DNA from: Anaerolinea thermolimosa
Lineage (GTDB): Bacteria; Chloroflexota; Anaerolineae; Anaerolineales; Anaerolineaceae
Direction of reading: 5' to 3'
Assembly: GCF_001050195.2 (NCBI RefSeq)
Contig: NZ_DF967965.1
Location: forward strand, 3,134,213 to 3,173,671
DNA length: 39,459 nt
Positions within the stretch are counted from its first letter, which is position 1. Every line of letters begins with the position of its first letter. The position numbers and the translations under genes were made by a program. Shown in pieces: positions 3,868 through 4,881 of this stretch. The notes below the pieces were generated by a model. The model ran no database searches. It saw nothing but the letters and a program-made list of their open reading frames with translations, and was not told where the DNA came from.

Positions 3868-4038
3868 CCTTTTTTTAACGAGACGGAGTGGTACCGTGGG
3901 CCCCCGCAGGGGGATGCTATTCGAACCCCACCTCTCCGCCTTTTTTTAACGAGACGAAGTGGTACCGTGGGCCCCCGCAGGGGGATGCTATTCGAACCCC
4001 ACCCTCTCCGCCTTTTTTTAACGAGACGAAGTGGTACC
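3868..4038 (+). repeat. tRNA-Ser 3'-end-derived tandem array, first block
   Basis: Units lie at 3868-3938 (71 bp) and 3939-4010 (72 bp), with a truncated third at 4011-4038. Each unit starts CCTTTTTTTAACGAGACG. It then carries GGTACCGTGGG from the tRNA variable and T arm, a 19-nt insertion (CCCCC-GCA-GGGGG plus ATGCTA), TTCGAA, and the tRNA 3' acceptor strand ending CTCTCCG. The T-stem halves GTGGG and CCCAC are kept, with an extra hairpin inside. A unit lacks the acceptor 5' strand, D arm and anticodon arm, so it cannot be a tRNA. The block is cut by the duplication junction. Confidence 0.9.
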
Positions 4039-4303
4039 GTGGTTGAGTGCATATCGCGGCCAGCGGCTGGTAGTTCCTCAGCCCCTTGAAGGGTGGACAT
4101 GGCCCGGGGCGGCCACACGCTCGCTCAGAGAACTGGCGGAAGAAGCCGTCGGAGCGATCCGACAAATGGCCGAAGGCGATCTTCCCCGCGCAGGGTTACC
4201 CTCCAATCCCTGGGCAATCGCAGGGTATGTGCTGGGTGGGTTATTCGCCATTCAACTGCTGATTGGCCTGTTTGCTTTGCTGGTGAGCAGTCTGTTTGGC
4301 TAA
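4039..4303 (+). pseudogene. 3' fragment of DUF5671-type gene
   Basis: The last 88 codons of the upstream membrane protein are repeated here, beginning around the LSAYRGQRLV segment and ending with the same stop. The fragment has the C-terminal part of the soluble region and the last transmembrane helix. It lacks its native start. An in-frame ATG within the adjoining repeat unit at 4031 makes a short open frame of 90 codons, but no ribosome binding site precedes it. It is best read as a by-product of the duplication. Confidence 0.85.
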
Positions 4304-4319
4304 CAAGGTTGCGTGTTCG

Positions 4320-4328
4320 TGGTATAAT
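4320..4328 (+). promoter_or_regulatory. Extended -10 promoter of tRNA-Ser copy 2
   Basis: An identical copy of the TGGTATAAT element stands before the second tRNA-Ser, so both tRNA copies should be transcribed if the duplication is real. Confidence 0.6.
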
Positions 4329-4363
4329 CGCGTTCGCCAATTGAATTACATCATCCGATTGAT

Positions 4364-4450
4364 GGAGAGGTAGCGTAGTCTGGCCTAACGCGCGCGCCTG
4401 GAGAGCGCGTGTACCGCAAGGTACCGTGGGTTCGAATCCCACCCTCTCCG
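4364..4450 (+). tRNA. tRNA-Ser: tRNA-Ser(GGA), copy 2
   Basis: This is a base-for-base copy of the tRNA at 3781-3867, with the same GGA anticodon (4400-4402), long variable arm and G discriminator, and without an encoded CCA. It is followed by six full tRNA-3'-derived repeat units. Confidence 0.95.
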
Positions 4451-4881
4451 CCTTTTTTTAACGAGACGGAGTGGTACCGTGGGCCCCCGCAGGGGGATGC
4501 TATTCGAACCCCACCTCTCCGCCTTTTTTTAACGAGACGAAGTGGTACCGTGGGCCCCCGCAGGGGGATGCTATTCGAACCCCACCCTCTCCGCCTTTTT
4601 TTAACGAGACGAAGTGGTACCGTGGGCCCCCGCAGGGGGGATGCTATTCGAACCCCACCCTCTCCGCCTTTTTTTAACGAGACGAAGTGGTACCGTAGGC
4701 CCCCGCATGGGGATGCTATTCGAACCCCACCCTCTCCGCCTTTTTTTAACGAGACGGAGTGGTACCGCGGGCCCCCGCAGGGGGATGCTATTCGAACCCC
4801 ACCTCTCCGCCTTTTTTTAACGAGACGGAGTGGCACCGTGGGCCCCCGCAGGGGGATGCTATTCGAACCCCACCCTCTCCG
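4451..4881 (+). repeat. tRNA-Ser 3'-end-derived tandem array, main block
   Basis: Six full units follow the second tRNA: 4451-4521 (71 bp), 4522-4593 (72), 4594-4666 (73, one extra G), 4667-4738 (72), 4739-4809 (71) and 4810-4881 (72). They differ by single changes: ACGGAG or ACGAAG near the start, CCTCTCC with or without one extra C, GTAGG for GTGGG in unit 4, ACCGCGG in unit 5 and GGCACC in unit 6. The inner hairpin CCCCC-GCA-GGGGG and the TTCGAA core are conserved in nearly all. Each unit opens with a seven-T tract that could terminate transcription. The array ends sharply at CCGCCCTGG. Confidence 0.9.

Follow-up and report, generated by a model that had tools for sequence, protein, structure and literature searches.

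In the current study, we detected a family of small repeats, here called tRNA-tail cassettes, in which an intact tRNA or tmRNA gene is followed by further copies of its own tail, reaching from roughly 10 nt ahead of the T loop to the trailer end and often including the terminator. These per-tRNA tail repeats carry a look-alike hairpin nearly always at one nucleotide position, and they extend across an order of the Chloroflexota as a clade-specific family.

The window, i.e., the whole stretch of 39,459 nt analysed from Anaerolinea thermolimosa (GCF_001050195.2, contig NZ_DF967965.1, positions 3,134,213 to 3,173,671), contains eight full units and one partial unit, with a spacing of 71–73 bp between hairpin starts within each run. 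These counts agree with an earlier note on this DNA, which had, however, placed all units in a single run behind one tRNA gene. A second tRNA-Ser(GGA) lies at 4364–4452, and an exact direct duplication (587 identical bp, offset 583) splits the array, so that there are two runs, each behind its own tRNA-Ser(GGA):

3456–4042, plus strand: first copy of the exact direct duplication, with the end of a 640-aa ORF, tRNA-Ser(GGA), two full units and a stub (identity to 4039–4625)
3781–3869, plus strand: tRNA-Ser(GGA), first copy (ARAGORN; Rfam RF00005 at 3781–3867)
3848–4042, plus strand: first run, from the tRNA T loop, two full units and a stub (TRF, period 71, 2.7 copies)
3901–3919, plus strand: first run, unit 1, hairpin and TGCTA tail (sequence)
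3972–3990, plus strand: first run, unit 2, hairpin and TGCTA tail (sequence)
4039–4625, plus strand: second copy of that duplication, with the left junction inside the stub of unit 3 (identity)
4364–4452, plus strand: tRNA-Ser(GGA), second copy (ARAGORN; Rfam RF00005 at 4364–4450)
4431–4883, plus strand: second run, from the tRNA T loop, six full units (TRF, period 72, 6.3 copies)
4484–4502, plus strand: second run, unit 1, hairpin and tail (sequence)
4555–4573, plus strand: second run, unit 2, hairpin and tail (sequence)
4627–4646, plus strand: second run, unit 3, hairpin and tail of 20 nt (sequence)
4700–4718, plus strand: second run, unit 4, hairpin and tail, variant GCAT (sequence)
4772–4790, plus strand: second run, unit 5, hairpin and tail (sequence)
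4843–4861, plus strand: second run, unit 6, hairpin and tail (sequence)
4862–4883, plus strand: final copy of T loop and 3' end, stopping at the tRNA 3' end with unique sequence beyond

A full unit of the window consists of tRNA-Ser from about 10 nt 5' of the T loop, a hairpin with a short tail, TTCGAA and the 3' end, and a T run closes every full unit except the last. The 19-nt insertion described earlier between the 5' strand of the T stem and TTCGAA is present in all full units (20 nt at 4627), and its hairpin is of the C5-GCA-G5 type. TRF scores of the two runs (369 and 827) are far above chance. A cmscan of the window at the gathering score returned nothing in Rfam beyond two tRNA matches.

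The same anatomy is found throughout the family. From 215 contexts, 235 downstream copies of the T loop and 3' end were identified by similarity to the local tRNA; a 5-bp hairpin with a 5-nt tail precedes 222 of them, and another interruption is present in 13. In standard tRNA numbering, the usual insertion lies between nucleotides 53 and 54 and reads T or C, CCCC, loop, GGGG, A or G, followed by TGNTA. This motif is present in 210 of the 222 tails (TGATA in 96, TGTTA in 46, TGCTA in 40 and TGGTA in 28, with 12 others). Reading the tail as a one-pair mini-hairpin (TGNTA against CGATG) was rejected, as CGATG occurs in just 4 of the 222 tails and the alignment offers no standard alternative pair. 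No tail copy without a hairpin was seen in the loci checked.

Variations in hairpin position were also observed. Val units of L102 and L123 carry the hairpin at 43/44, that of Gln(CTG) follows TTCGAA, and L308 has two hairpin modules in series. A check over 216 tRNA contexts proved wrong the idea that no copy has an intact T arm, since two Glu(CTC) units of the window genome have one and carry their hairpins elsewhere, at the anticodon loop and the T/acceptor junction. The T stem is partly rebuilt after the hairpin in two Met units of L162, and the remaining matches were a stem-like hairpin tail (L215) and a distant chance match (L148). Additional palindromic insertions occur near the T/acceptor junction in L123, L301, L122, L078 and L354, some of which share text, e.g., CGCGAAGCACCCT, and a palindrome-like CCGCCAAG...CTTGGCGG lies within the spacer of a tRNA-Glu unit (L021, 1330–1480).

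In the A. thermolimosa genome, DNA and pattern searches, a covariance model and a tRNA census (51 Rfam tRNA matches) revealed this layout behind 12 tRNA species, i.e., Ser(GGA), Ser(CGA), Ser(GCT), Lys(CTT), Gly(TCC), Val(CAC), Glu(TTC), Glu(CTC), Arg(CCT), Arg(GCG), Asn(GTT) and Gln(CTG). Each unit derives from the 3' end and trailer of its own tRNA; the tRNA-Val(CAC) array has 8.2 copies of 89 bp. One truncated copy lies behind Pro(CGG) (L281), and in L068 a displaced 3' part identical to tRNA-Met(CAT) is followed by two units and adjoined by an integrase-like ORF. The hairpin-plus-tail pattern, searched without the T loop, has 47 matches in this genome, 45 of them in tRNA arrays and two overlapping elsewhere at one place. 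Two further exact-looking duplications involve arrays: tRNA-Ser(TGA), tRNA-Ser(GCT) and array recur 1588 bp away, one junction lying inside the array (L005, G000:C1:2523697-2527014), and the tRNA-Asn array occurs twice on contig G000:C6, at about 52.6 and 108.8 kb (~56 kb apart).

The occurrence of such arrays behind tRNA genes of relatives, proposed earlier as a check, was confirmed and goes beyond tRNA-Ser to many tRNA species. Covariance model R2 detected units in 96 of the 400 genomes sampled from the order; among genomes of good quality the figure was 73 of 210, and 33 of 130 genera had units. In a class-wide sample, 21 of 396 genomes had units, every one of them from that order (families f1 and f12); stricter filters in both runs lost weak matches. 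A pattern scan of named genomes gave at least 114 stretches. Among the 114 matches listed, 89 have a same-strand tRNA no more than 300 nt upstream (Ser 28, Glu 26, Lys 13, Met 6, Val 6, Gly 5, Arg 3, Asn 2), 11 start within 300 nt of the stretch edge and 14 are other cases. The latter comprise a stretch behind tmRNA (L205), two with tRNA-like 3' parts upstream (L175, L183), one with the T-loop text of L141 (L235), one present solely through an extra opposite-strand match (L191), one titled Pelotomaculum (L172), and eight that look like chance, several being titled from other phyla.

Record titles of the listed stretches are nearly all Chloroflexi or Anaerolineae, and one array (L142) is assigned by its title alone to Herpetosiphon sp. 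(MAG), a genus of another class. Named isolates with arrays are Longilinea arvoryzae KOME-1 and Bellilinea caldifistulae GOMI-1, the latter belonging to the Anaerolineales. Units also directly follow tmRNA genes recognised by Rfam, starting at 1713 behind the gene at 1278–1679 in L128 and at 7677 behind that at 7233–7618 in L205; L223 resembles a tmRNA tail, with no Rfam match in the piece examined. Seven more loci hit by the model were missed by the strict pattern; five are layout variants behind a called tRNA, and two (L103, L108) have similar text and no called tRNA. A viral collection yielded one contig with two units (L256).

Cassettes turn over at single sites. One genus has a syntenic tRNA-Lys(TTT) site with a DNA match in 57 of 57 genomes. 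We examined 30 of these loci, of which 26 had a readable tRNA: five have a terminator without a unit, 16 have units, three have remnants and two are cut short. Empty, occupied and decayed alleles thus coexist at this site, with copy numbers from none to several. As several empty sites have the kind of terminator found in each occupied copy, the trailer looks like a local duplicate there. Copy number and terminator order vary between close relatives, and two terminator versions stand in reversed order in G134 and G285, which points to recombination among repeats. In the genus of the window, one relative (G003) has no array at Ser(GGA), and another (G001) has two units, with a T stem that agrees with its own tRNA.

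In a typical locus, no island lies between the gene and its copy, the spacer being 12–102 nt long (median 44, 110 loci). True islands were seen solely at L068, L102 and probably L141. The ORFs at L068 1793–2737 (minus strand) and L141 1975–2898 (plus strand), which we read as tyrosine-recombinase-like, end near displaced tRNA 3' parts with hairpin units behind. In L102 (1980–6000), about 3.7 kb separate a unit-bearing tRNA-Val from another tRNA-Val 3' part that also has a unit; the intervening ORFs read like an ABC transporter and a toxin–antitoxin pair, and no integrase was seen in this interval.

Neighbouring units differ unequally along their length. In 133 pairs from 67 arrays, the change per site was lowest in the T loop (0.033), followed by the 3' strand of the T stem (0.053), the hairpin loop (0.056), the hairpin 3' arm (0.075), the acceptor (0.081), the hairpin 5' arm (0.105), the tail (0.131), the upstream part (0.171) and the trailer (0.363), although the tRNA resemblance required of copies favours the T loop and T stem. 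Thus, the T loop and the T-stem 3' strand change about 10 and 7 times more slowly than the trailer, which is not expected of an evenly drifting neutral tandem repeat. Of the 87 tail changes, 33 fall at the free N. The earlier observation that both halves of the T stem are preserved holds for most units of the window but not for the family, where 34 of 134 first units can form all five pairs vs. 128 of the 134 matching tRNAs. Of these 134 first units, 55 differ from the local tRNA at position 52, and 50 units differ from it at position 50.

Covariation, suggested as a check for both stems, gave a mixed outcome, with some compensatory change in the hairpin and a T stem that is not kept as a helix (pair 52–62 is unpaired in 48 of 110 sequences, and pair 53–61 in none of the 110). 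The hairpin alignment has 111 distinct rows (150 aligned from 179 model matches, 82 chosen loci). The outer pair is U-A in 73, C-G in 13, U-G in 1 and unpaired in 24; the next is C-G in 105, A-U in 5 and other in 1. The inner three are invariant, partly because of how the loci were found: L072–L255 were located by a model or pattern including CCCC/GGGG and the T loop, which is a bias, and L257–L289 (tRNA census) and L290–L319 (tRNA-Lys orthologues) were obtained without this pattern. Paired cells, doubly changed cells and the covariation score exceeded all 500 shuffles, kinship being known to inflate such scores. The two other measures, the number of doubly changed pairs and that of further pair types, were not above the shuffles (120 of 500 as high). 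Slid structures gave similar pairing (97.0% at −3) with no doubly changed cells.

Considering these results, we tentatively favour a tiny, mostly selfish DNA repeat, in which the hairpin-TGNTA-T-loop block would be the cis-acting signal, because the units are tied to the tails of stable RNAs, their number turns over, and the site is empty or decayed in relatives. The block may be read as a single-stranded hairpin by a putative nicking or recombination activity, which would start and amplify the cassette at T loops, leading from signal to duplication. A small non-coding repeat of this kind would persist because it leaves the tRNA intact. That the hairpin is conserved across the whole order could equally mean a host function.

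No candidate enzyme was found for this activity. Since Y1_Tnp and RVT_1 are each missing from array genomes, neither a Y1 transposase nor a reverse transcriptase is required. Reverse transcription of tRNA precursors is appealing in that copies often end just beyond the terminator T run, and was rejected because RVT_1 is absent from the window genome and, this one included, from nine of 26 chosen array genomes in all. A Y1 transposase (IS200/IS605, RAYT) was rejected as a requirement on the basis of one array genome (G214; 99% complete, array verified) without a Y1_Tnp match; Y1_Tnp has one match in the window genome and is present in 321 of 400 genomes, so its presence says little. Hairpin copying between loci of one genome was likewise not supported. 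Among 73 arrays of 48 genomes, five entries of the window genome having been added by hand, exact loops are common to 10 of 82 same-genome pairs (102 of 1000 permutations as high), 21 of 262 same-tRNA pairs (281 of 1000) and 153 of 2284 other pairs; loop class is weakly linked to tRNA type (29 of 1000 permutations) and not to genome (562 of 1000). Sharing within genomes is therefore not above chance and gives no sign of recent hairpin copying between loci.

The alternative readings can be weighed against the same data. The units have been proposed to act as serial transcription terminators behind strongly expressed tRNA genes, and many do contain a complete intrinsic terminator. Under a strict criterion, 71 of 110 first spacers combine a hairpin with a T run, 12 have a T run alone and 27 have neither, so this part of the earlier proposal stands for many units but not for one terminator per unit, as 27 of 110 lack a T4 run (a few of these have T3 runs). 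Besides, the terminators are the fastest-drifting part (trailer, 0.363), and a terminator has no need of a tRNA tail or a hairpin, so that we regard this role as very unlikely to explain the units. Where no T4 run is found, the units may be co-transcribed, which, together with the compensatory changes in the hairpin and the small RNAs between dual terminators of E. coli rRNA operons (PMC8144298), speaks for a role of the units as RNA. On the other hand, a terminator precedes the first unit in 71 of 110 cases, close relatives have an empty or decayed site, and the stem has hardly any G-U pairs; we consider an RNA role possible, if somewhat unlikely. Another idea, that the hairpin shields the tRNA from misfolding with its copy, was not supported by equilibrium folding of 108 loci, a calculation that leaves out synthesis order and modified bases. 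Native acceptor pairing fell from 0.927 in the absence of the unit to 0.062 in the presence of the real one; it was 0.068 after removal of the hairpin, 0.049 when the stem was restored as well, and 0.097 with a shuffled hairpin. The real hairpin gave a small consistent gain over its removal (75/108, p 0.0036) and over the restored form (83/108, p 1e-6), and no pairing gain over the shuffled insert (48/108).

Neutral slippage had also been considered possible. In this view, replication slippage, together with unequal crossing over, would multiply tRNA tails, and the hairpin would be a passive by-product. Such a process could make the tandem copies and fits the units following their own tRNA, the none to several copies at one site and the decay of remnants, but it leaves unexplained why a similar hairpin and TGNTA stand at one nucleotide position behind so many tRNA species and tmRNA in two main families, why tail copies are not seen without a hairpin in the checked loci, and why the T loop and T-stem 3' strand change so much less than the trailer. 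We judge this explanation unlikely. The units might instead be blocked decoy attachment sites, with hairpins interrupting partial tRNA or tmRNA copies where integrases cross over; an integrase would then bind or abort at the unit and not in the gene. In favour of this, the hairpins lie in the T loop, the anticodon loop and the T/acceptor junction, the three crossover subsites named in PMC4383910, and tmRNA is also a target. This reading nevertheless appears similarly unlikely, as some hairpins at 43/44 fall outside all three subsites, 55 of 134 left half-sites carry a mutation at position 52, and displaced tRNA 3' parts, two of them beside an integrase-like gene, indicate that integration did occur at array-bearing tRNAs; if true, it would represent a DNA-based protection of stable-RNA genes against integration. 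Exact direct duplications in the window (583-bp and 1514-bp) and elsewhere in the same genome might point to an assembly artefact, and unit numbers there may be unreliable. The units, however, differ among themselves and are found in many independent assemblies, including those of L. arvoryzae KOME-1 and B. caldifistulae GOMI-1, which makes an artefact extremely improbable.

Compared with known systems, the cassettes do not fully match any of the kinds that we could name. The nearest resemblance is to rtT of E. coli, likewise tandem repeats behind a tRNA gene with part of the tRNA 3' end inside, reportedly at one locus and with longer units. Rfam includes an rtT family, the model of which had no match in the window (cmscan, gathering score). 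Unlike rtT, the cassettes are found at many tRNA species and tmRNA, with units of ~60–90 bp and a similar hairpin before the T loop. The rtT repeats belong to the tyrT operon (Bosl and Kersten 1991, cited in PMC2965389). REP elements and REPINs, associated with RAYT transposases, also combine a short GC palindrome with a conserved motif that stays unpaired at one end, and are dispersed and tagged with GTAG or CGTC (PMC3733652). The motif of the cassettes is instead TGNTA (210 of 222 tails), 45 of 47 pattern matches of the window genome lie within tRNA arrays, and Y1_Tnp is not required, G214 having arrays without a match.

As in the fragments left by integrase islands in Islander (PMC4383910), a partial tRNA 3' copy lies downstream of an intact tRNA, and the hairpins of most units fall at the integrase crossover subsites described there, with some at 43/44. 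The cassette copy is, however, tandem, per-tRNA and split by a hairpin, typically with no island between gene and copy. The small RNAs of E. coli rRNA operons (PMC8144298) are similar in that an element lies between two terminators after a stable-RNA gene, whereas cassette units derive from the tail of the tRNA itself and are known from DNA sequence alone. No report of such arrays was found in the literature searched, in which subscription papers were mostly out of reach, so that their absence from print is not proved.

The empty, occupied and decayed alleles at one syntenic site offer a natural system for the start and spread of small non-coding repeats, and the arrays allow asking whether tRNA tails carry a regulatory or protective element. 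They also matter for annotation, as tRNA fragments serve to call genomic islands and the antisense strand of arrays yields long false reading frames. Antisense ORFs of 116 aa (3768–4118, minus strand) and 161 aa (4351–4836, minus strand) run through the window arrays and contain GGEGGIRTHGT-like text; both are likely false genes. Elsewhere in the window, a second exact direct duplication (8780–10295 and 10294–11809; 1516 identical bp, offset 1514), with no tRNA at either end, is either real or an assembly error, and short tandem repeats occur at 31023–31090 and 39388–39443, with periods of 24 and 12/24.
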